Source: Mogibacterium sp.
Lineage (GTDB): Bacteria > Bacillota > Clostridia > Peptostreptococcales > Anaerovoracaceae
Length of the DNA: 64,000 nucleotides
NCBI GenBank assembly: GCA_017431685.1
Contig: JAFRKO010000025.1
Span: 1 to 64,000 of the forward strand
Direction: 5' to 3'
The notes beneath the pieces are model-generated. The model had not been told where the DNA came from, did no database searches, and saw only the letters and a list, made by a program, of their open reading frames with translations. Positions 47,522-63,813 of the stretch are shown here, in pieces. Numbering within the stretch: the first letter of the stretch is position 1; each line of letters begins with the position of its first letter. Position numbers and translations under genes: made by a program.

Positions 47522-48181
47522 TTAGAAATACTGCGCTATACGGCGGAGTTTGGACTGCTCCATGTGATACTCCATCGCTTTACGCCCTGCGGCTGCATTT
47601 CTGACCTCGAAGGCATCGTAAATAGCTTTGTGCTCTTCAAGGATGGCTCTCAGGCTTTCCTCTGTATATGTTTTATGAGGCGCTGAGTATTTCAGATAAG
47701 TATGATAGATGGACAGAGTCTTCTGTATCATACGGTTCTTGGTACCGGCGTATATTACATTATGGAACTGTGTGTTGAAAGCAAGCACCTTGTCTACATC
47801 GTCTTTCAGGGTGTAGAACTCCATAAATTCCAGGCTTTCAGCCAGCGCATCGATCTCTTCGGGACTCATGCGTTTGATAGCCCATTCAACAGCCTGGACT
47901 TCGAAGCGTATCCTCAGGTCGAAGAGGTCTGAGATGTCGCGTTTTGTGAGACCTGTGACAAAGGCTCCGCGGTTAGGGATGTTTTCGATCAGGCCATCAG
48001 CTTCGAGCTGCCTGAACGCTTCTCTTACCGGAGTCCTGCTCACGCCGTATCGTTTGCAGACAGCCTGTTCGGTGAGCTTGCTTCCATCAGGAATGGCACC
48101 AGAGAGTATGTCTTTCTGAAGCTCTGCATATAGTCCGGCCGACAGTGGCTGGCTTGTTTTTTCTCCGTTGATGATATCCAT
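47522..48181 (-). CDS. GntR-family (FCD) regulator
   Basis: Start at the ATG complement of 48179-48181, behind GAGGTG, gives 219 residues. Winged helix (LTEQAVCKRYGVSRTPVREAFRQLEADGLIENIPNRGAFV, about residues 34-75) followed by an FCD all-helical effector domain (DLFDLRIRFEVQAVEWA, NTQFHNVIYAG, EEHKAIYDAFEVRN) whose Asp/His residues usually bind a metal and a carboxylic acid. FCD regulators commonly sense organic acids. It is divergent from the aconitase-citrate lyase operon, so a di- or tricarboxylate effector is plausible. Confidence 0.92.
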   Translation of the reverse strand: MDIINGEKTSQPLSAGLYAELQKDILSGAIPDGSKLTEQAVCKRYGVSRTPVREAFRQLEADGLIENIPNRGAFVTGLTKRDISDLFDLRIRFEVQAVEWAIKRMSPEEIDALAESLEFMEFYTLKDDVDKVLAFNTQFHNVIYAGTKNRMIQKTLSIYHTYLKYSAPHKTYTEESLRAILEEHKAIYDAFEVRNAAAGRKAMEYHMEQSKLRRIAQYF

Positions 48182-48214
48182 GATACACCTCACATTTTCC
48201 ATACGTTTCATATC

Positions 48215-48460: not shown

Positions 48461-48490
48461 TTGGAATTCAAATAATCCTACTTCTATAAT
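48461..48490 (+). promoter_or_regulatory. Promoter of aconitase-citrate lyase operon
   Basis: TTGGAA (48461-48466), 18-base spacer, TATAAT (48485-48490). ATTGTA half-sites flank it. Confidence 0.6.
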
Positions 48491-48561: not shown

Positions 48562-50805
48562 ATGATCAAGTATTATCAGCAGGGTACCGAATGGCATAAT
48601 GGTGCTCCTCAGAATGCAGCACAGGATGCTGACAAATGTGCCGGAAGAAACGGCACGATTGCTTATCAGATTCTGAACGCACACCGTGCCCAATCTGATG
48701 ACGGAATTTTCCATATCAGCTTTGATGCGCTGGTGTCGCATGACATCACATACGTCGGGATCATCCAGACTGCCAGAGCAAGCGGCCTCAGGGAGTTCCC
48801 GATCCCTTATGCAATGACAAACTGCCACAACAGCCTTTGCGCTGTCGGAGGCACCATCAATGAGGACGACCATGTATTCGGTCTGTCTGCTGCAAAGAAA
48901 TACGGCGGTATATATGTTCCGGCAAATCAGAGCGTCATACACTCATACGCAAGAGAAGAACTGGCAGCATGCGGAAACATGATACTCGGATCAGACAGCC
49001 ATACACGTTACGGCGCTCTTGGCACCATGGGAGTAGGCGAAGGCGGGCCGGAGCTCGTAAAGCAGCTTCTGAAGAACACCTGGGACATCACACCGCCTGA
49101 AGTCGTACTCTGCTATGTGACCGGTAAGCCTAAAAAGGGCATCGGTCCGCATGATGTAGCGATCGCTCTCGTGAAAGAGACATTCAGCCGGGGACTGGTC
49201 AAGAACAAAGTGCTTGAATTCGCAGGACCGGGACTTGAGTATCTGCCTTACGACTTCAGAAGCGGCATTGATGTAATGACGACAGAGACCACCTGCCTCT
49301 CATCCATCTGGGCTACAGATGAAGAGATCAGAAAGTATTATGAGATCCACAAACGTCCTGAGTGCTATAAGAAGCTTGAGCCGAAGGAAGGCGCATACTA
49401 CGATGCGATCATAACAATCGAGCTCGACAAGATGGAGTCGATGATCGCTCTTCCATTCCATCCTTCAAACGCATATACAATACACGAGTTCCTCGAAAAT
49501 GCCGATGAGATACTTGCGGGCGTCGAGGCAGAAGCTGCTAAGAAGTTCCCTAAAGCTCACCTCGATCTCAGGTCGAAGGTCAGCGATAAAGGAGTACTGG
49601 CCAATCAGGGAATCATCGCAGGGTGCTCGGGCGGTATCTTCGACAATATCGTAGAAGCGGCAGATATCCTTAAAGACGGAAGCACCGGCAACGGTTACTT
49701 CTCACTTTCAGTTTATCCTACAAGCGTTCCGACGAGCCTGGCTCTCACCCGCGCAGGCAAGACAGAGGCTCTGCTTGAGGCCGGCGCAGTTATAAAGCCA
49801 TCGTTCTGCGGACCTTGCTTCGGAGCAGGAGACGTGCCGGCAAACAACGGTCTTTCTCTCCGCCATACAACGAGAAACTTCCCTAACCGTGAAGGCTCGA
49901 AACCGGGCGAGGGTCAGATAAGCGCTGTTGCCCTGATGGATTCAAGATCGATAGCTGCAACAGCTAAAAACGGCGGATACATAACCGCAGCAACAGATAT
50001 AGATTACGATACAGAACAGGTACCGTACACATTCGATAATGAAGTATACAAAAAACGCTGCTACTATGGATTCGGCAAGGCAGAACCTGATACCGAGCTC
50101 ATTCTGGGACCGAACATCACCGACTGGCCTAAGATGTACGAACTGGCAGATAATATGCTGCTTGAGCTGGCGGCAGTGATCAGAGATCCTGTCACAACGA
50201 CTGATGAGCTCATACCTTCGGGAGAGACAAGCTCTTACAGGAGCAATCCGCTCCGCCTCTCGGAATTCGCGCTTTCACGCCGCGTTCCGGAATATGTCGG
50301 CCGTTCAAAGGCAGTAGCTGCTGATGAGGCTGCACGCCGTGAGGGAGAAAAGCCGGCTAAAATGGTCAAAGCTCTCAGCGCTGTCGGAGATGCCGATGAG
50401 CTCCTGAAGAACACACAGTTTGGTTCGTGCGTGTTTGCCAATAAGCCGGGCGACGGGTCTGCAAGAGAGCAGGCAGCATCGTGTCAGAAAGTGCTTGGCG
50501 GTTTCGCCAACATCTGCTACGAGTACGCCACAAAGCGTTACCGCAGCAACTGCATCAACTGGGGCATCCTGCCGTTCACCCTGGCAGAGGGAGATGAGTT
50601 CCCGTATGAAGATGGCGACTTCGTATTCGTGCCGGGTATCCGCGCTGCGATCGAAAGCGGACAGGAAGAGATCCCTGCAAAGGCTGTACGCAAAGACGGA
50701 TCAGTCAGTGATCTGACTCTCTATGTAAAAGGCCTCACAGCTGACGAAAAAGAGATAATCCTCGAAGGCTGCCTCATGAATTACTATGCGGCACAGAATG
50801 AGTAA
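48562..50805 (+). CDS. Aconitase-superfamily hydratase
   Basis: Start at ATG 48562 (AGGAAAGGAAGG site) gives 747 residues. A monomeric aconitase-family protein: GSDSHTRYGALGTMGVGEGG (substrate/cluster region), Cys in IIAGCSGG (about residue 355) and the pair in SFCGPCFGAGD (about residue 415) for the [4Fe-4S] cluster, then a swivel domain with NYRSNCINWG-like segment. It resembles the YbhJ-type hydratase branch more than AcnA or AcnB. Being linked to citrate lyase and isocitrate dehydrogenase, citrate/isocitrate is the likely substrate pair. Confidence 0.88.
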   Translation: MIKYYQQGTEWHNGAPQNAAQDADKCAGRNGTIAYQILNAHRAQSDDGIFHISFDALVSHDITYVGIIQTARASGLREFPIPYAMTNCHNSLCAVGGTINEDDHVFGLSAAKKYGGIYVPANQSVIHSYAREELAACGNMILGSDSHTRYGALGTMGVGEGGPELVKQLLKNTWDITPPEVVLCYVTGKPKKGIGPHDVAIALVKETFSRGLVKNKVLEFAGPGLEYLPYDFRSGIDVMTTETTCLSSIWATDEEIRKYYEIHKRPECYKKLEPKEGAYYDAIITIELDKMESMIALPFHPSNAYTIHEFLENADEILAGVEAEAAKKFPKAHLDLRSKVSDKGVLANQGIIAGCSGGIFDNIVEAADILKDGSTGNGYFSLSVYPTSVPTSLALTRAGKTEALLEAGAVIKPSFCGPCFGAGDVPANNGLSLRHTTRNFPNREGSKPGEGQISAVALMDSRSIAATAKNGGYITAATDIDYDTEQVPYTFDNEVYKKRCYYGFGKAEPDTELILGPNITDWPKMYELADNMLLELAAVIRDPVTTTDELIPSGETSSYRSNPLRLSEFALSRRVPEYVGRSKAVAADEAARREGEKPAKMVKALSAVGDADELLKNTQFGSCVFANKPGDGSAREQAASCQKVLGGFANICYEYATKRYRSNCINWGILPFTLAEGDEFPYEDGDFVFVPGIRAAIESGQEEIPAKAVRKDGSVSDLTLYVKGLTADEKEIILEGCLMNYYAAQNE

Positions 50806-50826
50806 GGATTTACCGGGAGGAACACC

Positions 50827-51126
50827 ATGGAAATCAAAAAAACCGCAGTAGCCGGTACTCTCGAGAGCAGCGACTGTATGGTCACTATCGAGCCGGCGAA
50901 AAAGGGCATCGAACTCGAGCTCGAAAGTTCTGTAATAAGGCAGTACGGAAGGCAGATAAGAAAGGTCGCGCTGACGACCCTGAGGCGCCTCGGAGTACGC
51001 AATGCCAGAGTGAGCATTGTTGATAAAGGCGCGCTGGACTGTACTATCAAGGCAAGAGTGGAATGCGCAGCTATGCGCGCCGCTGAATATGAAGGCAGGA
51101 TCAACTGGGGAGGTATGATAAGATGA
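50827..51126 (+). CDS. citD: Citrate lyase acyl carrier protein (gamma)
   Basis: A 99-residue CitD. The Ser that carries the phosphoribosyl-dephospho-CoA prosthetic group is Ser14 in AGTLESSDCMVTI. The rest (ELELESSVIRQYG, GALDCTIKARVE) is typical. It lies 21 bases after the hydratase gene with a GGGAGG site and overlaps citE by 4 bases (ATGA). Confidence 0.96.
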   Translation: MEIKKTAVAGTLESSDCMVTIEPAKKGIELELESSVIRQYGRQIRKVALTTLRRLGVRNARVSIVDKGALDCTIKARVECAAMRAAEYEGRINWGGMIR

Positions 51127-52025
51127 GCAATCCTGACAAATACCGCCTGCGCCGCACAATGATGTTTCTGAATTGCCAGAAACCGAGCCTCATAAAGGAT
51201 CCGTATGTTTATAAACCGGATTCGATCATGCTGGACCTCGAGGATGCGGTAGCTGAGAGAGAGAAAGACGCGGCGAGGTATTCGCTTTATCACGCTCTGC
51301 AGGAGATAGATTACAGGGGCGTAGAGAGAGTAGTACGTATCAACGGGCTGGATACCAATCTCTGGCGCGAGGACATAAGATGTGCCGTTGCAGGAGGATG
51401 CGATTCTATCCGCATCCCTAAGACGGAGACTGCTGACGATGTACGTACAGTTGAGTACGCCATCGCCGAGGCGGAGAGAGAGTTCAGCAGACCGGAGGGA
51501 AGCGTGCTCATCATGGCTGCTCTCGAATCCGCGAGAGGTGTCATCAATGCCATGAGCATCTGCGACTCGTCGGAGAGACTCTTCGGAATCGCCCTTTCGG
51601 GAGGAGATTATTCCAAGGACCTCCAGGTGCCGATTTCAGGAACCGGTGTAGAGTTCATGGGAGCCAGACAGCACATGGTAATAGCGGCAAGAGCAGCAAA
51701 GGTGCAGTGCTTCGATACGGTATGGACTAACCTGGACGATATGGAAGGTTTCAGAAAGGAAGTCGAAGTCATTCATGCGATGGGTTTTGACGGCAAATCC
51801 ATAGTCAATCCGCGTCAGATCCCGGTCGTTCATGAGATCTACACGCCAAGCGAAAAGTCGGTCATCTTCGCAGAGAAGGTCATCAAGGAGATCGAAACCA
51901 AGAAAGCTCAGGGTATAGGAGTTTTCACGGTGGACGGCAAGATGATAGACATAGCGTTCTACGACGGCGCGAAGAGAACCATAGCTCTGGCCAAGGCATC
52001 AGGTGTATACAAGGGGGATCTGTAG
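51123..52025 (+). CDS. citE: Citrate lyase beta subunit (citryl-ACP lyase)
   Basis: A 300-residue CitE TIM-barrel enzyme that cleaves citryl-ACP to oxaloacetate and acetyl-ACP. Motifs: MLDLEDAVAEREKD, VRINGLDT, DSIRIPKTETADDV, MAALESARGVINA and the C-terminal GKSIVNPRQIPVVHE. Translationally coupled to citD. Confidence 0.96.
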   Translation: MSNPDKYRLRRTMMFLNCQKPSLIKDPYVYKPDSIMLDLEDAVAEREKDAARYSLYHALQEIDYRGVERVVRINGLDTNLWREDIRCAVAGGCDSIRIPKTETADDVRTVEYAIAEAEREFSRPEGSVLIMAALESARGVINAMSICDSSERLFGIALSGGDYSKDLQVPISGTGVEFMGARQHMVIAARAAKVQCFDTVWTNLDDMEGFRKEVEVIHAMGFDGKSIVNPRQIPVVHEIYTPSEKSVIFAEKVIKEIETKKAQGIGVFTVDGKMIDIAFYDGAKRTIALAKASGVYKGDL

Positions 52026-52026
52026 C

Positions 52027-53577
52027 ATGAAAAACGCAGTAGGAAGAGAGATCCCGGAAGAGATAATCGAGATCACCGGGAAAGAGCCTTTTCAGGGTAA
52101 CTATTACCGTGACGACAAGCCGATCAAACTGCACGGACCTACAATACGTCCGGTAATGAACAACCAGAAATCCAAACTGGTAGCGAATATCAGGGAAGCT
52201 CTTGAGAAGTGTGAAGCGCACGATGGAATGACGGTTTCGTTCCACCATCACTTCCGCGAGGGAGACCTGATAGTCAATATGGTGATGAAAGAGATCCACG
52301 ATATGGGTCTCAAAGATATAAGAATTTGCGCATCCTCGCTCGGCAAGGCGCACAGCGCGCTCGTACCGATGATCGAGGACGGCACTATCACGAACATCGA
52401 ATCCTCAGGTGTAAGAGGCGGCATCGGTGAGGCTATTTCGAAGGGCAAGCTGAAGGGACTGGCTATAATGCGTTCGCACGGCGGACGTGTAAGATCGATA
52501 GCGACAGGCGAGAGCCACATCGACATCGCTTTCATAGGCGCGCCGACTGCTGACGATTACGGAAACCTGAGAGGTATCGGCGGCAAGGCGGACTGCGGCG
52601 TACTGAGCTATGCCATCGTCGACGGCAACCACGCCGATCACTGCGTGGCTATCACAGACTGCCTGGTTCCGTACCCTAACTTCCCGGCTCACATATCACA
52701 GACAAAGGTAGACTATGTGTGCGTTGTCGATGAGATAGGCATACCGTCAAAGATCGCGACAGGTGCCGCAAAGCCGACGACCGATCAGAGAAAACTGCTT
52801 ATGGCGCAGTACTGCACCGATGTAGTAGTAAATACACCTTGGTTCAAGGACGGCTTCTCTTATCAGACGGGTGTAGGCGGAGCATCGATCGCTTCGACAC
52901 AGTACCTCGCAGACATCATGAGGGAGCGCAACATACGCATGGGCTTCGGCGTCGGAGGACTTACAAAGGCAATGTGCAAGCTCCTCGAGGACGGCATGGC
53001 AGATGTCATGCTCGACGTACAGGATTTCGACCTCGACGCGGTCAGGAGCCTTAAGAACGTAAACCATCACAGAATACCGGCTGCTGTTTACGCGAATCCT
53101 CTCAACAAGGGCGCTGTCGTAAACAAACTCGACTACGTAGTGCTGGCATCGCTCGAGGTGGATGTGCACTTCAACTGCAATGTAGTTGTAGGATCTGACG
53201 GCATGATCACCGGCGCGCAGGGAGGACACCCTGATACAGCGCAGGGAGCAAAGTGCGCGATAGTCATATGTCCGCTGCTTCAGGGCAGGATCCCGGCTAT
53301 CTGCACCGACGTCACGACTGTCACAACACCTGGTGAGAGTATCGACGTTGTCGTTACAGACTATGGAGTAGCAGTCAATCCGGCAAGACAGGATATTCTG
53401 AAGGCTCTCAAAGAAGCGAACTGTGTACCGCTTAAGACTATCGAGGAACTTCGTGACATAGCCTACTCAATAGTCGGCGAACCTGACAAAGTTGAGTTCG
53501 AGGACAGGATAGTAGGAATCATCGAAGCCCGTGACGGCACCATCATGGATGTTGTAAGACAGATAAAGGAAATTTAG
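52027..53577 (+). CDS. citF: Citrate lyase alpha subunit (citrate:acetyl-ACP transferase)
   Basis: Start at ATG 52027, one base after the citE stop, gives 516 residues, the expected length. CitF swaps acetyl for citryl on CitD. Typical segments are SFHHHFREGDLIVN, GGIGEAISKG, RSHGGRVRSIATGESHIDIAFIGAP, AQGGHPDTAQGAKC and the C-terminal YGVAVNPARQDI. Followed 27 bases later by icd. Confidence 0.96.
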   Translation: MKNAVGREIPEEIIEITGKEPFQGNYYRDDKPIKLHGPTIRPVMNNQKSKLVANIREALEKCEAHDGMTVSFHHHFREGDLIVNMVMKEIHDMGLKDIRICASSLGKAHSALVPMIEDGTITNIESSGVRGGIGEAISKGKLKGLAIMRSHGGRVRSIATGESHIDIAFIGAPTADDYGNLRGIGGKADCGVLSYAIVDGNHADHCVAITDCLVPYPNFPAHISQTKVDYVCVVDEIGIPSKIATGAAKPTTDQRKLLMAQYCTDVVVNTPWFKDGFSYQTGVGGASIASTQYLADIMRERNIRMGFGVGGLTKAMCKLLEDGMADVMLDVQDFDLDAVRSLKNVNHHRIPAAVYANPLNKGAVVNKLDYVVLASLEVDVHFNCNVVVGSDGMITGAQGGHPDTAQGAKCAIVICPLLQGRIPAICTDVTTVTTPGESIDVVVTDYGVAVNPARQDILKALKEANCVPLKTIEELRDIAYSIVGEPDKVEFEDRIVGIIEARDGTIMDVVRQIKEI

Positions 53578-53604
53578 GATCCGGGAGATAAATAAGGAGA
53601 AAAA

Positions 53605-54816
53605 ATGGAAAAGATCAGAATGACCACCCCTATCGTCGAGATGGACGGGGATGAGATGACAAGGATACTCTGGAAAATGATAAAGGATGAGCTCATCCTG
53701 CCTTTCGTAGACCTCAAAACTGAATACTACGACCTCGGACTTCCTGTCCGTGATGAGACGGGCGATCAGATCACAAAAGACGCCGGAGAAGCGATCAAGA
53801 AGTATGGCGTAGGCGTAAAGTGCGCTACCATCACACCGAATGCTCAGCGTATGACAGAGTACAATCTGCACGAGATGTGGAAGAGCCCGAACGGCACCAT
53901 CCGTGCGATCCTTGACGGCACGGTGTTCCGTGCGCCTATCACTATCGATGGCATCAAGCCTGTAGTACGCAACTGGAAAAAACCTATCACCGTTGCCCGT
54001 CACGCCTACGGCGACCTCTACAAGGGAACTGAATACCGCGTTCCTGAGAAGGGCAAGGCAGAGCTCGTGTTCACGGGTGAAAACGGAGCTGAGTACCGTG
54101 AGACAGTCTATGACTTCGAGTGCCCGGGCATTCTGCAGAGCATCTATAACAAGGACTCCTCAATCGAGTCGTTTGCTCATTCGTGCTTCAAATACGCAGT
54201 GGAGACAAAGCAGGATCTCTGGTTCTCTGCAAAGGATACGATCTCGAAAAAGTACGACATGCACTTCCGCAACGTGTTCCAGAAGGTTTACGATGAGTGC
54301 TATAAGGAGAAGTTCGATGAGCTCGGTCTCACATACTTCTACACACTGATCGACGACGCCATTGCGCGTGTTATCCGCAGCGAAGGCGGTTTCATATGGG
54401 CTCTCAAGAACTACGACGGTGATGTCATGAGCGATATGGTATCCACTGCGTTCGGTTCGCTCGCAATGATGACATCCGTGCTCTGCAGTCCTGACGGCAA
54501 GTTCGAGTATGAAGCTGCTCACGGCACAGTGACACGTCACTATTACAAATACCTGAACGGCGAAGAGACATCGACCAACCCGATGGCTACCATCTTTGCA
54601 TGGAGCGGCGCTCTCAGAAAGCGCGGGGAGATGGACGGACTCGAAGATCTGCAGGCATTCGGAGATAAACTCGAGGAAGCATGCATTGATACATTAAATG
54701 ACGGTATCATGACCAAGGACCTGGTCGGACTCGTAGAAGGCATGGAGGCTAAGGCTGTCCTCACAAAGGACTTCATCGCGGCTATACGCGAGCGCCTTGA
54801 GGAAAAACTTAAATAA
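53605..54816 (+). CDS. icd: NADP-dependent isocitrate dehydrogenase (eukaryote-like type)
   Basis: A 403-residue isocitrate dehydrogenase of the subfamily that includes mitochondrial/cytosolic [58 protein letters not shown] and [23 protein letters not shown] with the NADP-specificity segment TRH. It interconverts isocitrate with 2-oxoglutarate and CO2. In the citrate lyase operon it can run as a reductive carboxylase. Good GGAG site. It ends the operon before a strong terminator. Confidence 0.95.
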
Positions 54817-54834
54817 TACACTGTTTTTACAGAT

Positions 54835-54863
54835 CCAGGCAGCATTGTTCTGCCTGGTTTTTC
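54835..54863 (+). terminator. Terminator after icd
   Basis: CCAGGCAG (54835-54842) pairs with CTGCCTGG (54850-54857), followed by TTTTT. Confidence 0.9.
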
Positions 54864-55042
54864 TTATCCGTGAAAGATTTATCAGCTAGATGGATAAAAA
54901 TTATATGAGAATAAGGCCTGGATAGGACTTTAAAAACTTTTGATAAATAATTCGGACTTATAAATTATATGTTTAGCAATTGCAAGCCGGATTATGGTAC
55001 ATATCCATGCAGTCTTCCCCTTGCGGGAGTTTGAGTTGACGA

Positions 55043-55069
55043 TAACAACAAAAGCAAACGTTATTGTTA
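55043..55069. promoter_or_regulatory. Dyad in the icd-citC gap, candidate regulator site
   Basis: TAACAA (55043-55048) and TTGTTA (55064-55069) are inverted with 15 bases between, just after TTGACG (55036-55041). The gap 54864-55239 has no convincing gene; a 72-codon frame at 54994-55212 has no ribosome site. The site could serve the LysR regulator encoded downstream. Confidence 0.35.
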
Positions 55070-55239
55070 AGCTGAAATGCTGTATATATTATCACGCGGT
55101 TGATCTGCTTGCGGGTTTGCTAAATATAGTAAGGTATATTCCTGTTTTTTTATCAAAATTCAGAAAAGTCCTCTGGATGAGCTCTGACTCACTGATCACA
55201 TGTGAATACTAAAGGGACACATTAAATATTACATCAACT

Positions 55240-56199
55240 ATGGGAATTTCAATCTACAACACACCTCTGTCTGAACGGCAGCATAAGGAATATCAGAGCC
55301 TTCTTGAGTCGTGCGGTCTGCGTGATGAAGGTGATGCGGATATAGTAGCGCTGATGACTGAAGACGGCGATCTTATTGCGTGCGGGGCTCTGGCAGGGCA
55401 TACGGTAAAACAGCTCGCTGTCGACTCTGACGCGGAAGGCCAGGGTGCGATGGCTGCTGTCCTTTCCGCCCTGATATCTGAAGCGTACGCCAGAGGCCTC
55501 CAAAGGCTCTTTCTGTGCACAAAACCGGAGAACCTGCGCATGTTCAGGTCAATGGGGTTCCATACGGTGATTGAAACGCCAGATGCTGTGCTGCTCGAGA
55601 ACAGAAAGGGCGGCCTGGAAAGATTTCTGGAGTCCATTCCGAAGTATGACGGAATATGCGGAGCCGTGGTCTGCAACTGCGATCCTTTCACCCTGGGACA
55701 CCGCCACCTGATCGAATATGCCGCCTCGCACTGCGATAACCTGTATGTTTTCGCAGTATCCGAGAAGGGCTCGATGTTCAGCCCGGAGGAGCGGCTCGGG
55801 ATGATCAGAAAGGGAACGGCAGACATAGAGAGCTGCCACGTATTCGAAAGTGACCTTTATCTTATATCGCGCGCTACTTTCCCTGCGTATTTTATAAGGG
55901 AAGAGTCCCGCGCCGATCTGGTGAAGTCAGATCTCGACATAGAGCTGTTCTGCAAGCGCATAGCTCCTGCGCTGAACATAAGCATACGTTTTGCCGGTGA
56001 GGAGCCTTTCTCTCCTGTTACCCGCGCTTACAACGAGCGGATGAAGGAACTGCTGCCCGCGAATGGCATCGCTTTTGAAGAGATACCGCGCCTGTCGGAG
56101 ATCAGTGCGGGCAAGGTGAGAAGTCTTATAAAAGACGGTGAGTTTGAGAAGATCAGAGAGATGGTACCGGAAAGCACCTATGAAGTCATACAGCGTTGA
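55240..56199 (+). CDS. citC: [Citrate (pro-3S)-lyase] ligase
   Basis: A 319-residue CitC with an N-terminal GNAT-like domain (VKQLAVDSDAEGQGAMAAVLSALISEAYARG, about residues 45-85) and a nucleotidyltransferase domain with CNCDPFTLGHRHLIEYAA (TxGH motif) and the C-terminal EISAGKVRSLIKDG. It acetylates the prosthetic group of CitD using ATP and acetate, switching the lyase on. The start lacks a close ribosome site (AAAGGG is 22 bases upstream), suggesting low expression. Overlaps the next gene by 20 bases. Confidence 0.94.
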   Translation: MGISIYNTPLSERQHKEYQSLLESCGLRDEGDADIVALMTEDGDLIACGALAGHTVKQLAVDSDAEGQGAMAAVLSALISEAYARGLQRLFLCTKPENLRMFRSMGFHTVIETPDAVLLENRKGGLERFLESIPKYDGICGAVVCNCDPFTLGHRHLIEYAASHCDNLYVFAVSEKGSMFSPEERLGMIRKGTADIESCHVFESDLYLISRATFPAYFIREESRADLVKSDLDIELFCKRIAPALNISIRFAGEEPFSPVTRAYNERMKELLPANGIAFEEIPRLSEISAGKVRSLIKDGEFEKIREMVPESTYEVIQR

Positions 56200-57502
56200 T
56201 CTTGAACAGATGCTAGAAGCCCGCGAAAGACGGGTCGTGATACAGAATAAGATGCTCGAAGACGCCGGCACGGGGCAGTGCCTTGTTTGTCTTACAATGA
56301 ACATCGCTGGTGATGTTAAGCGCACCCCTATGACGCGCATGCTCTTCAATGCCGGAGCAGAAGAGATGAATTCGCTCGGCTTCAGGATCCTTAAGGAGTT
56401 CTCTCTCGATGAAGTGACCGGAAGCGAAGCCTTCTGGCTGATCGATGAAGAGGGGGCGCAGGTGAAAGCGATGCTCGAGAAGGTGGAGGACTCATTCTCC
56501 GCTGCAAGGCTCTATGACTTTGATGTGATAGTGCCGGGCGGGAGCAAGCTCTCAAGAGCGGAAGGCAGGCGCTGTCTTATCTGCGATACCTACGCTGCGG
56601 AGTGCGCGAGGAGCAGGAGGCACGGCCTCGAAGAAGTGAAGAGGGCGACAGCTGATCTGCTCAGAGGATTCTGCGCCGGAAAGCTGTCCAAAGCCGCGCA
56701 TGACTCCCTCCTGGACGAGCTGTATACGACTCCGAAACCGGGACTTGTAGACATGAACAATAACGGCGCCCATTCAGATATGGACGTTCCTTTATTTGAG
56801 AAAAGTGCGGATGCGCTCGCTTCGTACTTTGAGGATGCCGCGCTGCTGGGAATGGACCGCTGCGGCATCGCTGTGCTGCGCGAGCGCGGCATAAAAGCCG
56901 AAAAAGAGATGTTCGCTGCTACGGGCGGCGTCAATACCCATAAGGGCCTTATATATTCTATGGGTCTGCTGCTCGCCGGTATGGGCAGGGCCCTTATTGA
57001 AGGAGGTTCGTGTGTAAGCCACGCGGCTGATCTGGCCTGTGAGGACGCTGAGATCAGGCTCAGGGAAACGCTTGCTGCTCCGGTCACCAACGGAGGGGCA
57101 GTATACAAAACATACGGTGCAAGAGGTGCTACGGGGGAAGCCGCAGCGGGGTTCCCTGACGCGCTGTACTGCATGGAGCGTCTCGCTTTTTATAGAGATA
57201 ACGGCTGCGATGAGCCCGCTGCTCTTGCGCTCTGCGACTCCATGGCTTCGCTCGAAGACACTAATCTGCTTCACCGCGGAGGCAGGGAAGGCCTCGGATT
57301 TGTGATGCATGAGGCTGCGCGTATATCCGGGATGCCTGCCGGTGAACGCATCGAAGCGCTGAAAGTACTGGACGGGGAGCTGATAAGCCGCAGCCTGTCG
57401 CCGGGTGGCAGCGCAGACATGCTCGCGCTGGCATTTCTGCTGGACAGATGGCAGACGCTCAGCGCTGATCTGTTTGCTGATGGAAGGGAGGAACGAATAT
57501 GA
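56180..57502 (+). CDS. citXG: CitX-CitG fusion (citrate lyase prosthetic group enzymes)
   Basis: Start at ATG 56180 gives 440 residues. Residues 1-165 are CitX (apo-citrate lyase phosphoribosyl-dephospho-CoA transferase: LEQMLEARERRVVIQNKML, CLTMNIAGDVKRTPM). Residues about 170-440 are CitG (triphosphoribosyl-dephospho-CoA synthase: LYTTPKPGLVDMNNNGAHSDM, ATGGVNTHKGLIYSMGLL, GGSADMLALAFLL). The fusion makes and installs the CitD cofactor. It starts within citC and its end overlaps the LysR gene by 4 bases. Confidence 0.94.
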   Translation: MKSYSVDLEQMLEARERRVVIQNKMLEDAGTGQCLVCLTMNIAGDVKRTPMTRMLFNAGAEEMNSLGFRILKEFSLDEVTGSEAFWLIDEEGAQVKAMLEKVEDSFSAARLYDFDVIVPGGSKLSRAEGRRCLICDTYAAECARSRRHGLEEVKRATADLLRGFCAGKLSKAAHDSLLDELYTTPKPGLVDMNNNGAHSDMDVPLFEKSADALASYFEDAALLGMDRCGIAVLRERGIKAEKEMFAATGGVNTHKGLIYSMGLLLAGMGRALIEGGSCVSHAADLACEDAEIRLRETLAAPVTNGGAVYKTYGARGATGEAAAGFPDALYCMERLAFYRDNGCDEPAALALCDSMASLEDTNLLHRGGREGLGFVMHEAARISGMPAGERIEALKVLDGELISRSLSPGGSADMLALAFLLDRWQTLSADLFADGREERI

Positions 57503-58398
57503 CGCTTCAGGAGCTAAGATACTTTTGTGTTACGGCCGAGGTGCTCCACTACACGCGTGCGTCGCGCCTCCTTTATATATCACAGCCAAGTCTGAGCTAT
57601 GCGCTTAACAAGCTTGAGCAGGAGCTGGGGGTGCCGCTGTTTGAGAAGAACGGCAAAAGAGTGACCCTTACCAAATACGGAGAGGAGTTTCTTCCGTATG
57701 CGAAGAGAGCTCTTGCTGAGCTTTCTGAAGGCACTGAGCGCCTGAGAGAAATGAAAGTCCCTTCATCGGGAGGGATCAGCATGGGATATATCTACAGCGT
57801 AAGTTTCTCCGCTCTGCCTGAATTCGTAAACAGATTTTACATGCATCAGGGAAATGAGCAGATCGCTTTCCGCTTCCGCCAGGGAAAGGCGGGGGAACTC
57901 ATAGAGCAGCTCCTGAACGGATCGCTTGATCTTCTCATCGCCGGAAAGCCTGAACTGACTTCCATCGATTACATCCCGATCTACCGCCAGGAGCTTTATC
58001 TGATAGTTCCTGCCACACACCGCCTCGCGGATGCCGAGTCGGTCACTCTGTCGGATATAGCCGGGGAATACTTCATTTCGCTGAACCATGAGACACTGAC
58101 TTATCATCAGCTTGAGAAAGAATTCAGAAAGGCTGAATTTGAGCCGAACACGATAATCGAGGCGGACGAATACAGTTCCATTGCAGCATCGGTATCCATG
58201 GGTGCCGGAGTGGCAATAATGCCGATACTTCCGATACTCGACAGTTTTAACGTCAAGAGGATTCCGTTTGCGGACTCGACCATGTACAGAGATATCTGTG
58301 TGCTGAGATCATCATCACAGGAGATGAGCCCGGAAGTGCAGAGTGTCTGGGATCTTGCAAAACATATTTCATATGAACCCGGAAACGGAGTAGAATAG
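57499..58398 (+). CDS. LysR-family regulator in citrate lyase cluster
   Basis: A 299-residue LysR protein. Winged HTH at residues 1-60 (LQELRYFCVTAEVLHYTRASRLLYISQPSLSYALNKLEQELG), effector domain after it. It is read from the same transcript as citC and citXG (ATGA overlap) and precedes glutaminase by 19 bases. It likely regulates this cluster and perhaps glutaminase; the effector could be citrate, 2-oxoglutarate or glutamine (inference). Confidence 0.93.
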   Translation: MTLQELRYFCVTAEVLHYTRASRLLYISQPSLSYALNKLEQELGVPLFEKNGKRVTLTKYGEEFLPYAKRALAELSEGTERLREMKVPSSGGISMGYIYSVSFSALPEFVNRFYMHQGNEQIAFRFRQGKAGELIEQLLNGSLDLLIAGKPELTSIDYIPIYRQELYLIVPATHRLADAESVTLSDIAGEYFISLNHETLTYHQLEKEFRKAEFEPNTIIEADEYSSIAASVSMGAGVAIMPILPILDSFNVKRIPFADSTMYRDICVLRSSSQEMSPEVQSVWDLAKHISYEPGNGVE

Positions 58399-58417
58399 AA
58401 GCAGAAAGGGGGTAGCC

Positions 58418-59476
58418 ATGGCTGAGATCAATAATAAAGGACCGGAAGAAAACCTGGTAATAGACAAGCAATACAAGCTGCAGGAAAGATCCAAGGCGAT
58501 AGAGATAATAAAGAGAGGCATGGATCTTGCAAGAGAAGAGATCCCTAAGGGTAAGGTCGCCACATACATACCTGAGCTGGGAAAGGTGGATCCCCACCAG
58601 CTCGGAATAGTGATAAACCCGATCAGAGGCGAAAAGATCAGCATGGGTGACTATGATGTCAGGTTCACCATGCAGTCAGTGTGCAAGGTCATAATGCTGA
58701 TAGTGGCTCTTGAATTATGTGGTCGAAAGGAAGTGTTCGCTAAGGTGGGCATGGAGCCGTCAGGTGAAGCGTTCGATTCGCTGGTGGAGCTTGATGTAAG
58801 CAATTCCAAGCCATATAACCCGCTCATCAACTCAGGCGGGCTCGCGCTCTGCGGACTGCTTCTGCCGGAGCTGTCGTTCCAGGATATTCTGAGATTCAGC
58901 AGGAACATCTGCTCAGATCCGGAAATAGAGCTGAATGAAGCGGTCTATGAATCGGAGATGAAGACCTGCTCACGAAATCGTTCCATAGCGTATCTTCTCC
59001 AGAGCAAAGGAATCCTGAATAAAGACGTTGAGGATACATTAAGATTTTATACAAAAATGTGCTCAATGAGCGCCACGGCAGATTCACTCTCCAACCTTGG
59101 AGTGATACTGGCTAATGACGGTGTCTGCGGCGACACCGGAAAAAGATTCATGTCTTCTAGAACCGCCCGCATCGCAAAAACACTGATGCTGACCTGCGGT
59201 ATGTATGACGGATCCGGATCGTTTGCCATCAAAGTAGGAATCCCTACCAAGTCGGGAGTCGGCGGCGGACTGCTGTCAGTATCAGATAAACGTGCAGGCA
59301 TCGGTGTGTTCGGACCTGCACTCGATACCCAGGGCAACAGCATTGCGGGATGCAAACTGCTCAGGGAGATCTCAAATGAGCTCAGACTCAACCTGTTCTA
59401 TGATCCTGAATGGAACAGAGAAGACGAAGAAGAAAACGAGCTGATCAAAGGAATCAGAGAATCCCACGTGATCTGA
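58418..59476 (+). CDS. glsA: Glutaminase A
   Basis: A 352-residue beta-lactamase-fold glutaminase converting glutamine to glutamate and ammonia. Catalytic SxxK is in FTMQSVCKVI (about residue 90). Other motifs are KPYNPLINSGGLALCGLL, NEAVYESEMKT, TCGMYDGSGSFAIKVGIPTKSGVGGG and GVFGPALDTQGNS. It is slightly longer than the usual 305-310 because of extensions at both ends. Strong AAAGGGGG site. Its presence next to icd and citrate lyase suggests glutamine enters the citrate-cleavage route. Confidence 0.94.
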   Translation: MAEINNKGPEENLVIDKQYKLQERSKAIEIIKRGMDLAREEIPKGKVATYIPELGKVDPHQLGIVINPIRGEKISMGDYDVRFTMQSVCKVIMLIVALELCGRKEVFAKVGMEPSGEAFDSLVELDVSNSKPYNPLINSGGLALCGLLLPELSFQDILRFSRNICSDPEIELNEAVYESEMKTCSRNRSIAYLLQSKGILNKDVEDTLRFYTKMCSMSATADSLSNLGVILANDGVCGDTGKRFMSSRTARIAKTLMLTCGMYDGSGSFAIKVGIPTKSGVGGGLLSVSDKRAGIGVFGPALDTQGNSIAGCKLLREISNELRLNLFYDPEWNREDEEENELIKGIRESHVI

Positions 59477-59492: not shown

Positions 59493-60647
59493 ATGGGTAA
59501 CAGAGCATTCAAAGAAAACAAAAAACATTTAGCTTTCGGCATGATGAGACTGCCGATGGTCGACGGAAAGATTGACAACGGGCAGGTCTGCAGAATGGTG
59601 GACCTGTTCCTCGAGAGAGGCTTCAACTACTTCGATACCGCTCACGGATATCATGACGGACTGAGCGAGATCGCCGTAAAGGAATGCCTCACCTCAAGAC
59701 ATGACCGCAGTGAGTACGTCCTGACCGATAAACTCACGGATGAGTACTTCAAATGTGAGGAGGATATCAGACCGCTGATTGATTCACAGCTCGAGGCGTG
59801 CGGAGTTGAGTATTTCGACTTCCTCCTGATGCATGCACAGAACGCAAAGAACTTTGAGTTCTTCAAGCAGTGCCGCGCATACGATACAGCATTCGATCTG
59901 AAGGCAGAGGGCAAGGTGCGCCACGTGGGACTTTCATTTCACGACAAGGCAGAAGTGCTCGATCGCATTCTTACTGAATATCCTGACGTAGAGATAGTTC
60001 AGATACAGTTCAACTATCTCGACTATGAGAGCGTCTCCGTAGAGAGCCGCAAGGTCTATGAGGTATGCCGCAAGCATAACAAGCCTGTGCTCGTGATGGA
60101 GCCTGTAAGAGGCGGAAATCTTGTCAATCTGCCTGAAGCGGCGCAGAAAGTGTTCGACGATCTCAGAGCAGAGACGGGATCTGACTGCAGCAACGCAGGC
60201 TATGCTCTCAGGTTTGCTGCCGGATTCGACGGAATGGAGATGGTGCTCTCCGGCATGAGCAACATGGAGCAGATGGAAGATAATCTTAAGACTTTCAGCT
60301 GCTGCGACGGAGACTTTGCTCCTCTCACTGACAGAGAACGTGAGGCTGTCGACAAGGTTGCGGAAGTGTTTGGCTCTCTCGGAGCTATCCCGTGCACACA
60401 GTGCAGATACTGCGTCGAGGAGAACCACTGCCCGATGGAGATAAAGATACCGAATCTGTTCTCCTGCTATAACAGCGAAGTCCTTTTCGGCAGGAACAAC
60501 CCGTGGAGCACTTATGAAGCCATTATTGAGGGAGGCAGCGGAAAGCCGGGTGACTGCATCGAATGCGGCATGTGCGAGGGAGTCTGCCCTCAGCATCTTG
60601 AAATAAGAGAGCTCCTTAAAACAGTGGCTGAAAAGTTCGGATCCTGA
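59493..60647 (+). CDS. Aldo/keto reductase with C-terminal ferredoxin domain
   Basis: A 384-residue protein. Residues 1-270 form an aldo/keto reductase barrel (FGMMRLPMVDGKIDN, FNYFDTAHGYHDGLSE with the Tyr, DFLLMHAQNAKN, VEIVQIQFNYLDYES). The C-terminus has Cys clusters CTQCRYCVEENHCP (about residue 302) and CIECGMCEGVCPQHLEI (about residue 352), for one or two [4Fe-4S] clusters. Common in anaerobes; substrates are mostly unknown. It follows glutaminase by 16 bases and may be co-transcribed. Confidence 0.92.
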   Translation: MGNRAFKENKKHLAFGMMRLPMVDGKIDNGQVCRMVDLFLERGFNYFDTAHGYHDGLSEIAVKECLTSRHDRSEYVLTDKLTDEYFKCEEDIRPLIDSQLEACGVEYFDFLLMHAQNAKNFEFFKQCRAYDTAFDLKAEGKVRHVGLSFHDKAEVLDRILTEYPDVEIVQIQFNYLDYESVSVESRKVYEVCRKHNKPVLVMEPVRGGNLVNLPEAAQKVFDDLRAETGSDCSNAGYALRFAAGFDGMEMVLSGMSNMEQMEDNLKTFSCCDGDFAPLTDREREAVDKVAEVFGSLGAIPCTQCRYCVEENHCPMEIKIPNLFSCYNSEVLFGRNNPWSTYEAIIEGGSGKPGDCIECGMCEGVCPQHLEIRELLKTVAEKFGS

Positions 60648-60896: not shown

Positions 60897-62666
60897 ATGG
60901 ATGCAACTAACATAATCTCCTTATTAGGCGGCGTGGCGATGTTTCTCTTCGGAATGTCGGTCATGGGCGACTCGCTCAAGAAGGTAGCGGGAAGCAAAAT
61001 GGAAATGATCCTGTATAAACTTGCGGGAAATCCTGTAAAAGGAATCCTGCTCGGAACAGGAGTAACAGCAGCTATCCAGTCATCATCTGCTACATCTGTA
61101 ATGGTCGTAGGTTTTGTAAACTCCGGCATGATGCAGGTGAAACAGGCGATCGGCATAGTGCTCGGAGCGATCCTCGGCACGTCCATCACCGGCTGGATAC
61201 TTGCCCTCAACAGCCTGGGCGGAGGCGGAGGAGTGGCTTCGATGTTCAGCACTGAGGTGCTGACGGGCGTGGTAGCCCTAATAGGTATCCTGCTGTGGAT
61301 GTTTGCGAAGAAGACAGCACATAAGAACATCGGCGGCATAATGCTCGGCTTCGCGGTCCTGATGTACGGCATGAGCATGATGTCCGGATCTATCGCTCCG
61401 CTGAGAACAGATCCGAAGTTTATTGATATGATGACGAGCTTCAGCAATCCTGTGCTCGGAGTGCTGATCGGTGTACTGGTTACGGCTGTTATCCAGAGTG
61501 CCAGCGCTGCAGTCGGTATTCTCCAGGCTCTCGCCGGGACAGGCGCACTGGAATTTGACATGGCCTTCCCTATCCTTATGGGTATCGGCATCGGAGCTTC
61601 GGTTCCGGTAATGCTCAGCGCTCTCGGAGCCAGCGTCAACGGAAAGAGAACTGCTTTTGTTTATCTCATAATCGATGTGCTGGGTGCTGTGATCGTCGGA
61701 GGCCTTTTCTACATCGTCAACGCGATCGCTCATTTCGAGTTTATGACGATGGAGATGAACATGGTCTCTGTTGCTCTTACGAATACACTTTACAGACTGG
61801 CTGTGGTCATAGTTCTGGCACCGGCGATAGGAGCGCTCGAAAAGCTGGTAGTCAAGCTTTTCCCGGAGGGTCAGGAAGCGCTGGAAGAAAAGGCAGACAT
61901 GGACAAGCTCGAGCCGAGATTCCTCGATCACCCTACACTTGCACTTGCACAGAGCAAGGAGGTTATTGATTCCATGGCATCCAAGACACTGGAAAGTGTA
62001 ATGGGCGTCATCGATGCCAGAAGGGAATACAGCAAGGATGGAGTCAAGAGGGTAGTCGAACTTGAAAGGGTGATAGACCGCTACGAAGACAAACTCGGCA
62101 ATTATCTCTTCAAGCTCACTACTTCTGATCTGGATGAAGAGCATTCCGCAGAAGTCAGCAAGGACCTGAAAGTACTTTCCGACTTCGAGAGAATATCCGA
62201 CCACGCAAGGAATATCGCAGAATCCATAGAAGAGATTCACGAAAAGAAGATAGTCTTTTCGAACAGCGCTTTAAAGGAGCTGAAAACACTGGAGGAGGCG
62301 ATCCGGGAGATCGTAAATCTTACCATTTTCTCTTTTGCGAACAATAGCTATGACAATGCGCTTCGTGTGGATCCGTTAGAGGAAGTAATAGATGATATCT
62401 GTGACGCGATGAAGGCTAACCATGTCGAAAGAATCAGCAGACAGGAGTGCACGCTTGAGCATGGATTCGTTTTCAACGACATGATCACAGATTACGAGAG
62501 AATATCAGATCACTGCAGCAATGTTGCTCTGGATGTTCTGGAGGCAGTTTCCGAGATTGAAGGAAAGCACGCATACCACAAACAGCCGAGCTTCAGGCAT
62601 GATGATTTCTTCAAAAACAACTTTGCGGAATTCAAGAAACAGTTCGATATAGAAACTCTGAAATAA
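60897..62666 (+). CDS. Na+/Pi cotransporter-like membrane protein with PhoU domain
   Basis: A 589-residue protein. The N-terminal half is a Na/Pi cotransporter II repeat pair (LLGGVAMFLFGMSVMGDSLKK, GVTAAIQSSSATSVMVVGFVNSG and the inverted counterpart LVTAVIQSASAAVGILQAL, each with the QSS/QSA motif). The C-terminal 230 residues are a PhoU-like helical domain (RVIDRYEDKLGNYL, SDFERISDHARNIAESIEE). Such proteins move phosphate with Na+. The Mn2+-riboswitch in its leader is unexpected and suggests a role in metal-phosphate balance. GGGAGAAAGG site. Confidence 0.92.
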   Translation: MDATNIISLLGGVAMFLFGMSVMGDSLKKVAGSKMEMILYKLAGNPVKGILLGTGVTAAIQSSSATSVMVVGFVNSGMMQVKQAIGIVLGAILGTSITGWILALNSLGGGGGVASMFSTEVLTGVVALIGILLWMFAKKTAHKNIGGIMLGFAVLMYGMSMMSGSIAPLRTDPKFIDMMTSFSNPVLGVLIGVLVTAVIQSASAAVGILQALAGTGALEFDMAFPILMGIGIGASVPVMLSALGASVNGKRTAFVYLIIDVLGAVIVGGLFYIVNAIAHFEFMTMEMNMVSVALTNTLYRLAVVIVLAPAIGALEKLVVKLFPEGQEALEEKADMDKLEPRFLDHPTLALAQSKEVIDSMASKTLESVMGVIDARREYSKDGVKRVVELERVIDRYEDKLGNYLFKLTTSDLDEEHSAEVSKDLKVLSDFERISDHARNIAESIEEIHEKKIVFSNSALKELKTLEEAIREIVNLTIFSFANNSYDNALRVDPLEEVIDDICDAMKANHVERISRQECTLEHGFVFNDMITDYERISDHCSNVALDVLEAVSEIEGKHAYHKQPSFRHDDFFKNNFAEFKKQFDIETLK

Positions 62667-62675
62667 AAGTAAAGA

Positions 62676-62705
62676 AAGGACTGCCGGAGAGGTAGTCCTT
62701 TTTTT
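62676..62705 (+). terminator. Terminator after Na/Pi transporter-like gene
   Basis: AAGGACTGCC (about 62677-62686) pairs with GGTAGTCCTT (62691-62700), followed by TTTTT. Confidence 0.85.
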
Positions 62706-62772
62706 CTGCATGCGTTATAATAAACGTCGGCGTTTAGCCGGATCAACAAAAAAACAACAACAGGGTAGGAAA

Positions 62773-63813
62773 ATGAGCGCGACACTGATAATGTTACTGT
62801 TTACATTGATATTCTGGGGAATGTTCTACTATTCCTTCAGCAAGGACAGAAGCAGGTACCGTAACTGCCATCTGCTTTGCCTTGCGCTGCTTTCAATGAT
62901 CCCTTTTATTGTAAACATAGCAGGAGACCAGGCGGGTGAAATGCTTTATGCGACGTTTCTGCTGATAATGGCAGCTCTCCTTACAGTTCCGTTCTTTCTC
63001 ATACACAACGGGATCGTGATGATAAAAAACGAGGGCCGCTGCGCAGCGCATCTGCTTTCACTGGCACTTGGTGTAGCGATACTTGTGGGGGAGATACTTA
63101 CCGCATACAATGTAATACTCTACGCAAAAGTGTTCGGGCTTGAGGCGCAGGATGTGTATTTACACTCCCCGGTATTTCTCGCCACTTCCCTGATTGCCGT
63201 GACAGTAATTTACGGGTCGGTCTCATTCCTGGTATTCATGATCTACTCGGTTTTTCTGATGATAATCCCGAGGAGCAAGGACTTCGACTACGTTATAATA
63301 CACGGAGCAGGACTCATCAACGGAGATAAGGTATCCAGACTCCTGCAGGAGAGGCTGGACAAAGCCATATTTGTTTACCGCAAGGATCCTTCACCTACAA
63401 AGCTCATACCCTCCGGCGGAAAGGGCTCAGATGAAAGCATTTCGGAGGCCGAGGCCATGAAGAGATATCTGCTGGAGCAGGGGATACCCGAGAGCGATAT
63501 TATTATGGAAGACCAGTCGACTACTACTCTTGAGAATCTGAAGTTCTCAAAAGACATTATCGACAGCCGCGAGGAAAGAAAATATACGGCGCTGGTTACC
63601 AGCAATTACCATGTATACAGGGCGCTCAGATACTGCCGCAGGGTGGGTCTGAAGTGCAAGGGAATCGGAAGCCACGTTGCTTTCTATTACTGGCCGAGTG
63701 CGCTTATCCGCGAGTTTATTGCGGTGCATACCGAGAAGAAGCACGCTATACTCTTTACTCTCGGATGGGCATTCTGGATGTGGTTCACGGTGATGCTCAT
63801 AAGGGCAAACTAG
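62773..63813 (+). CDS. YdcF/ElyC-family membrane protein (DUF218)
   Basis: Start at ATG 62773 (AGGGTAGGAAA site) gives 346 residues. Five or six N-terminal TM helices are followed by a DUF218 domain: DYVIIHGAGLINGDKVSRLLQERLDKA, LIPSGGKGSDESISEAEAMKRYLLEQGIPESDIIMEDQSTTTLENL and VTSNYHVYRALRYCRRVGL, with one TM helix after it. Relatives SanA and ElyC affect envelope integrity and undecaprenyl-phosphate handling, but the biochemical function is not settled. Confidence 0.9.
   Translation: MSATLIMLLFTLIFWGMFYYSFSKDRSRYRNCHLLCLALLSMIPFIVNIAGDQAGEMLYATFLLIMAALLTVPFFLIHNGIVMIKNEGRCAAHLLSLALGVAILVGEILTAYNVILYAKVFGLEAQDVYLHSPVFLATSLIAVTVIYGSVSFLVFMIYSVFLMIIPRSKDFDYVIIHGAGLINGDKVSRLLQERLDKAIFVYRKDPSPTKLIPSGGKGSDESISEAEAMKRYLLEQGIPESDIIMEDQSTTTLENLKFSKDIIDSREERKYTALVTSNYHVYRALRYCRRVGLKCKGIGSHVAFYYWPSALIREFIAVHTEKKHAILFTLGWAFWMWFTVMLIRAN

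Follow-up and report, generated by a model that had tools for sequence, protein, structure and literature searches.

An aconitase, isocitrate dehydrogenase and citrate lyase gene cluster of Mogibacterium sp. as a possible reversible citrate node

The stretch of DNA analysed here, called the window, comprises positions 1 to 64,000 of contig JAFRKO010000025.1 (our contig C52) of Mogibacterium sp. (assembly GCA_017431685.1), the genome of which consists of 2.74 Mb in 74 contigs. It carries genes for an aconitase (acn), the three subunits of citrate lyase (citDEF) with their ligase and cofactor genes (citC, citXG), an NADP-dependent isocitrate dehydrogenase (ICDH, gene icd) and a glutaminase (glsA), which a first-pass annotation, made from the letters alone, had described as clustered and had interpreted as a route from glutamine to acetate through citrate lyase. 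Using profile models, we could confirm the genes and coordinates of this cluster, in which all reading frames are open and the order is GntR (divergent), acn-citDEF-icd, then citC-citXG-lysR-glsA-AKR (aldo/keto reductase):

47522..48211, minus strand: GntR/FCD-type regulator, divergent from acn, 350 bp before it (Pfam GntR 65.3 bits, FCD 86.3 bits)
48461..48490, plus strand: promoter-like site upstream of acn (10/12 consensus match only)
48562..50805, plus strand: acn, aconitase of the PRK11413/YbhJ type (PRK11413 1152 bits, cut-off 641)
50827..51126, plus strand: citD, citrate lyase acyl carrier subunit (TIGR01608 127 bits, cut-off 63.5; AGTLESSD motif)
51123..52025, plus strand: citE, lyase beta subunit (TIGR01588 352.5 bits, under the cut-off of 443.4)
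52027..53577, plus strand: citF, lyase alpha subunit (ATG 52027; start in the open reading frame list 52003; TIGR01584 658 bits, cut-off 501)
53605..54816, plus strand: icd, eukaryote-type NADP-dependent isocitrate dehydrogenase (NF006156 642 bits, TIGR00127 546 bits, both above cut-off)
54835..54857, plus strand: terminator-like hairpin 3' of icd (8 pairs, 6 of them G-C, T-rich tail)
55240..56199, plus strand: citC, citrate lyase ligase (TIGR00124 263.7 bits, cut-off 262.1)
56180..57502, plus strand: citX-citG fusion, holo-ACP synthase and triphosphoribosyl-dephospho-CoA synthase (X part TIGR03124 126.3 bits, above cut-off)
57499..58398, plus strand: LysR regulator, nearest model GltC (NF053705 167.7 bits, far under the cut-off of 350)
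58418..59476, plus strand: glsA, glutaminase (TIGR03814 356.7 bits, cut-off 255.4)
59493..60647, plus strand: aldo/keto reductase with a 4Fe-4S C-terminus, 16 bp behind glsA (Pfam Aldo_ket_red 136 bits, Fer4)

Adjacent genes are separated by -4 to 27 bp in the group from acn through icd, and by -17 to 19 bp in the group that begins with citC and ends with the reductase gene. Because of this close spacing within each group, of the 423-bp gap and the hairpin after icd, and of the promoter-like sites seen ahead of acn and also ahead of citC, the cluster probably forms two transcription units, acn-citDEF-icd and citC-citXG-lysR-glsA-AKR; promoter-like sites are not enriched in the region as a whole (18, against 15.9 with a standard deviation of 4.1 in shuffles).

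Compared with pig aconitase, using residue roles that we take to be as in that enzyme, the acn product keeps the three cysteines C355, C416 and C419 and most of the active-site His, Glu, Arg and Ser positions. The solved chain closest to the icd product is 4aou, an NADP isocitrate dehydrogenase, and the NCBIfam model of icd, which is blind to the other ICDH family, has a single match in the window genome, the cluster gene. The citF product lies above its curated cut-off, the lyase acyl carrier has the AGTLESSD motif, the Ser of which presumably carries the prosthetic group, and citC, citX and citG, which serve this group, are all present, the citG part of the fusion scoring 217 bits with MdcB and 202 bits with CitG, both under cut-off.

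A search with an alignment of the aconitase confirmed 573 relatives; counts out of 80 refer to 80 listed loci of named genomes, many of them cut by contig ends and many from gut and rumen metagenome-assembled genomes (MAGs). An NADP-ICDH is found at the same locus as acn in 59 of these 80, and citE or citF stands beside acn in 19; among 20 citF stretches drawn from the family, 5 have acn and icd next to citDEF. On these counts, the association of acn with citrate lyase is not due to chance. The 19 survey loci, the window and the five family genomes make 25 lyase-linked genomes, 24 of which entered the later searches (G159/L062 left out), and each of these 24 has one ICDH above the cut-off of the model used. 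Four of the 19 loci (L118, L122, L127 and L130) belong to MAGs that bear the labels Muribaculaceae, Paludibacteraceae or Bacteroidia. They contain acn, icd, citDEF, citX, citC and citG, except that citD was not seen in L118, where the contig ends, and citrate synthase of neither type was found in these four. Their clusters could result from horizontal transfer or from wrongly labelled bins, or could belong to a reductive tricarboxylic acid (TCA) cycle.

In a citF tree of 44 rows, the 22 acn-linked proteins form two clades, the window type (8 rows) and a second type (14 rows) into which the Bacteroidales-labelled proteins fall, and the citF of L038 and of L050, whose contigs end before acn could show, join one clade each. 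The two clades are 45-47% identical to each other and are tied to the same aconitase/ICDH pair: in L032, aconitase and ICDH are 90% identical to those of the window and citF only 47%. Beside one aconitase/ICDH pair, one lyase set has thus replaced another or the two have joined separately, and the repeated linkage of two lyase types to the same pair argues that the three activities work together. A second citF present in some family genomes was considered as a mark of citrate fermentation and rejected, because the six read (L037, L039, L045-L048) adjoin methylaspartate mutase genes (model names checked for L046). Family citF homologues in L042, L043 and L044 have multi-pass membrane proteins nearby, recognised by eye as a putative TRAP-type permease.

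Citrate synthase had been reported as missing, which is correct locally and, for the Si type (PF00285, no match in the window genome), genome-wide, and is probably incorrect for the Re type. The window genome has three HMGL-family matches, namely LeuA in a leu operon, an OadA-like protein and a 470-aa protein. The gene for the last is on the same contig (C52:87215-88624), 27 kb beyond the cluster and 23 kb beyond the window's end; from its context, the protein is a probable Re-citrate synthase (ReCS). None of the curated models places this protein above cut-off, the best being homocitrate and isopropylmalate synthase, far under, and the solved-structure search gave no Re-citrate synthase as a reference; such a lack of a model match is usual for Re-citrate synthases, which are often misannotated as homocitrate or isopropylmalate synthase (PMC12016533). 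The HMGL protein of about 470 aa found in most cluster genomes was also considered as the missing synthase and was rejected: the eleven examples inspected (L186, L190-L199) are all OadA-like, ten of them having an OadB-like gene in the vicinity, and the ReCS candidate is a different protein. Nor does the acn-icd pair stand as a rule beside a citrate synthase gene, as L107 is the one locus, among those shown, in which a clear Si-synthase gene adjoins acn; L105 has a 30% match to Si-synthase in this position, and of the five synthase queries used, those from L134 and L138 appear to be wrong reading frames. Among the 24 cluster genomes, 8 have a Re candidate, 2 a Si-synthase and 14 neither, these 14 including six unread HMGL matches and the MAGs being incomplete. 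Si-citrate synthase was found in 21 of the 50 genomes examined, that is in 2 of the 25 lyase-linked genomes and in 19 of the 23 that are not linked (Fisher p = 1.8e-7, ignoring the tree); G044 and G150, both without Si-synthase, were left out of this comparison as their aconitase neighbourhood was not in hand.

Among 297 genomes of the order, 57 have relatives of the ReCS candidate, and these allow the history of the locus to be followed. An aconitase-like stretch lies downstream of the ReCS relative in 26 of the 30 loci listed, 14 of these behind a GntR gene. Sixteen longer stretches (profile models run for L245 only) comprise 12 in which ReCS is followed by a PRK07229-type aconitase and then by an ICDH of a second kind, with an AEC permease gene behind in 8 of them, 3 with ReCS alone and 1 hybrid. 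In L058, L055 and L057, the slot from ReCS to AEC holds a YbhJ-type aconitase, NADP-ICDH, citDEF, citC and citXG, and the former aconitase and ICDH are gone. The hybrid, L248:7947-17986, belongs to the same genus and contains ReCS, a PRK07229-type aconitase, NADP-ICDH, a citDEF set belonging to the other type, LysR, citC and citXG; it stands midway between the ordinary cluster and that of the window type. The block adjoins the GntR gene and the reductase instead in L051, L052, L054 and the window genome, and the ReCS of the window genome remains at its old place (L188: trpS, ReCS, AEC) without aconitase and ICDH beside it. We conclude that ReCS was ancestrally part of the same locus and that the block moved away in the window species. 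The window clade exchanged a PRK07229-type aconitase and a different ICDH for a YbhJ-type aconitase and a eukaryote-type NADP-ICDH, with citrate lyase joining them.

The absence of a citrate carrier, also claimed by the first-pass annotation, holds in the window genome for the four families tested, with no match for 2HCT, DASS and TctA and one match under cut-off for CitMHS. The steps that flank the proposed route were sought in the same genome. The glutamate dehydrogenase (GDH) family has a full-length match at C55:28097-28858, and full-length matches in 20 of the 24 cluster genomes. Contig C7 (L186:531-8447, about 66530-74446 of the contig) carries genes for a GltP-like symporter, an amino-acid (aspartate-type) racemase, an aminotransferase, OadA-like and OadB-like proteins and a carboxyltransferase; the racemase and the OadB-like protein (485 bits, subfamily cut-off 190.6) are above a cut-off, the symporter, aminotransferase and carboxyltransferase are under, and the OadA-like protein reaches 712.8 against a cut-off of 718 with the best equivalog model and 683 against 402 with the pyruvate carboxylase subunit B domain. 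This group is possibly an aspartate-to-pyruvate sodium-pumping module. With GDH and the aminotransferase, OadA-like and OadB-like genes, the genome has plausible candidates both for converting glutamate to 2-oxoglutarate and for converting oxaloacetate to either aspartate or pyruvate.

Neighbouring genes in relatives were also considered. Near the cluster of L033 we found a GGT-like protein (352 bits, cut-off 358), a nitrilase-type amidase (under its cut-offs), and an aspartate aminotransferase and AsnA, both above cut-off, and near that of L069 a GGT and an amidase. Amidohydro_3-type (three copies in L070) and M20 hydrolases lie beside acn-icd-citDEF in L033, L049, L066 and L070, and perhaps release amino acids from acylated or peptide forms. 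These genes of L033 and L069, the M20 hydrolases of several clusters and glsA fit a use of amino acids.

Our favoured reading, to which we give slightly less than even weight, is that the cluster forms a reversible citrate node, the lyase branch of which would most likely lead from glutamine or glutamate to oxaloacetate and acetate. Glutaminase, then GDH or transaminases, would yield 2-oxoglutarate; NADP-ICDH would add CO2 to it, using NADPH, and aconitase would then give citrate, which citrate lyase, activated by CitC and supplied with its cofactor by CitXG, would cut to acetate and oxaloacetate, the latter going to aspartate by transamination or to pyruvate by the OadA/OadB-type decarboxylase. 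With GDH supplying the NADPH, the sum would be glutamate to NH3, acetate and pyruvate, CO2 being catalytic. When glutamate is scarce, the ReCS candidate and the same aconitase and ICDH could run the opposite way, to glutamate, with the lyase off, a regulation that we infer. The route proposed by the first-pass annotation is therefore retained in part, as every step has a gene in the window genome and none of the four importer families tested is above cut-off there; its argument from a missing synthase fails here, since a ReCS candidate is present and acn and icd could equally serve oxidative glutamate synthesis. The reductive reading is nevertheless the best single account of a lyase locked to aconitase and ICDH, because no importer is recognised and a flow from synthase to lyase would be wasteful.

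Flux direction cannot be read from sequence, and we predict it from rough thermodynamics. Equilibrium constants taken as about 0.3 M for citrate lyase, 15 for aconitase and 1 M for ICDH give a K of about 4.5 for 2-oxoglutarate + CO2 + NADPH -> oxaloacetate + acetate + NADP+. At 1 mM 2-oxoglutarate, 10 mM CO2 and 60 mM acetate, the same constants give a dG of -5.2 to -23.0 kJ/mol at 1-10 micromolar oxaloacetate and NADPH/NADP ratios of 0.1-10. With 1 mM oxaloacetate, dG is +6.7, +0.7 and -5.2 kJ/mol at NADPH/NADP ratios of 0.1, 1 and 10, respectively; a value of +0.7 kJ/mol is also obtained for 0.1 mM oxaloacetate when this ratio is 0.1. As dG is negative across the range of 1-10 micromolar oxaloacetate, the cleaving direction is the one expected when 2-oxoglutarate is supplied.

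Several observations weigh against this favoured reading. The aconitase lacks the Asp before His89 and has A634 where pig aconitase has Ser643; PRK07229-type and YbhJ-type aconitases nevertheless appear interchangeable, judging by the hybrid L248, and their equivalent place supports aconitase activity of the YbhJ type despite the missing Asp. The citE product is below its curated cut-off, and the citF model also accepts the methylaspartate-linked homologue (608 bits for the L046 protein, 658 for that of the window), so that citrate as the substrate of CitDEF is suggested by context, and the enzyme might in principle cleave something else. The window genome itself encodes the ReCS candidate, making oxidative use of acn and icd equally available, and ReCS immediately precedes acn in L058; in L055 a single class-II-aldolase-like gene separates ReCS from the acn that follows; in L057, which has the inverted order, ReCS adjoins icd; and in L248 it heads the hybrid cluster. 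The presence of glutaminase, a part of the original claim that stands for the window, is a weak link elsewhere: besides the window, 2 of the 25 relative loci scanned, L051 and L052, have glsA at the cluster, and we regard it as a late addition in three close species. Carrier absence is a property of the window genome and not of every relative, since the 24 cluster genomes have DASS above cut-off in 7, CitMHS in 18 and TctA in 3 (2HCT in 0); DASS, CitMHS and TctA families also carry other ions. Methylaspartate mutase is found in 7 of the 24, where the proposed route would be redundant. The opposition between lyase and Si-synthase is striking and statistically not secure: in a tree-corrected test (aconitase tree, starred branches) about 3 of 5 independent pairs differ, all in the expected way, and 2 do not, with a sign test of 0.25. 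Finally, the window genome is 94.45% complete with 4.85% contamination.

Two of the other explanations that we considered retain some weight. The cluster might serve oxidative glutamate synthesis by ReCS, aconitase and NADP-ICDH, with the lyase as a regulated drain for surplus citrate when glutamate is plentiful; we consider this unlikely but a serious contender, given that the genome encodes a ReCS candidate, that the ancestral locus has such a candidate beside aconitase and ICDH, and that ReCS-acn-icd-citDEF run in one direction in L248. In some clostridia, glutamate controls the activation of citrate lyase. A lyase supplied with citrate by a synthase of the same cell would, however, waste acetyl-CoA, and the 14 cluster genomes in which neither synthase type was seen, read with the reservations given above, do not fit this explanation. 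It is likewise doubtful that citrate (or aconitate or isocitrate) is imported by an unrecognised carrier and fermented, part of it passing to glutamate via acn and icd. A complete citrate lyase with an oxaloacetate decarboxylase is the core of citrate fermentation, CitMHS-family proteins are frequent in the relatives, and an AEC-type permease gene adjoins citC/citXG in L055, L057 and L058. This permease was rejected as the citrate carrier of the cluster, because its gene is also present in relatives whose locus has no lyase (L244, L245, L247, L250-L253 and L255) and is thus not a lyase partner, and against import in general stand the carrier results for the window genome.

The remaining two explanations concern the lyase itself. 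That CitDEF is a citramalate (or other) lyase, its acn and icd neighbours not belonging to one pathway, would account for the failure of the citF model to separate the methylaspartate-linked homologue from the window protein, and is very improbable: acn-linked CitF splits from the methylaspartate-linked clade (support 88, not starred), no methylaspartate mutase E was found in the window genome, and acn-icd-citDEF recurs with two types of citDEF. Least probable of all is a reversed lyase acting as citrate synthase in strains without one and leading from acetate and oxaloacetate to 2-oxoglutarate. The lyase is indeed present where Si-synthase is missing, and rumen acetate is high, but at 60 mM acetate, with the constants given above, this direction needs 0.1 mM oxaloacetate at an NADPH/NADP ratio of 0.1, or 1 mM at a ratio of 1, and the window genome has a Re-synthase candidate.

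The favoured reading, glutamine or glutamate to oxaloacetate and acetate through a reversible citrate node, can be compared with four known systems. It has the same sum as the methylaspartate (mesaconate) pathway, if GDH supplies the NADPH, and shares with it a homologous three-subunit lyase releasing acetate and a keto acid, and the same bacterial family; that pathway, however, uses glutamate mutase, an ammonia-lyase and citramalate, whereas ICDH carboxylation, aconitase and citrate would be used here, by an organism in whose genome methylaspartate mutase E was not detected. Anaerobic citrate fermentation clusters (citCDEFXG with a carrier and oxaloacetate decarboxylase) have the same lyase and maturation genes, and decarboxylase-like genes are found in the window genome, but here acn and icd lie inside the operon, glutaminase has joined and no carrier was recognised. 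ICDH and aconitase would run carboxylating as in the citrate-to-2-oxoglutarate half of the reductive TCA cycle, where ATP-citrate lyase gives acetyl-CoA and not, as with the ATP-independent lyase here, free acetate. The Re-citrate synthase - aconitase - ICDH operon of anaerobic Firmicutes (compare Heliomicrobium HM1_2993, PMC12016533) occupies the same locus in relatives, and the window genome keeps the synthase candidate; here, by contrast, aconitase and ICDH have been replaced by other families, citrate lyase has been added and the block has been relocated in the window species.

A literature search by title and the beginning of the abstract, with most subscription journals outside its coverage, found no description of the cluster or route among the papers listed, which is no proof of novelty. 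The cluster is a new arrangement of known enzymes, and the pathway, if it exists, would count as a new glutamate fermentation. We hold it possible, with somewhat less confidence than the reversible node itself, that this is a further route of glutamate or glutamine fermentation, passing through isocitrate and citrate, in which CO2 would be catalytic and returned at a sodium-pumping oxaloacetate decarboxylase, a carboxylating twin of the methylaspartate pathway that would combine one aconitase/ICDH pair with two lyases in gut Clostridia and Bacteroidales-labelled MAGs. If the lyase branch runs from glutamate, it would be an undescribed way for gut and rumen anaerobes to ferment an abundant amino acid, disposing of NADPH and giving oxaloacetate without glycolytic carboxylation, with half a reductive TCA cycle used for energy metabolism. 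Together, the ordinary ReCS-acn-icd loci, the swapped clusters and the hybrid L248 offer a ready series for the conversion of an oxidative branch into a reversible one.

Behind the reductase, positions 60897-63813 of the window hold a Na/phosphate cotransporter-like gene and a further membrane protein (both putative names), the latter of which we take to be DUF218/SanA-like.

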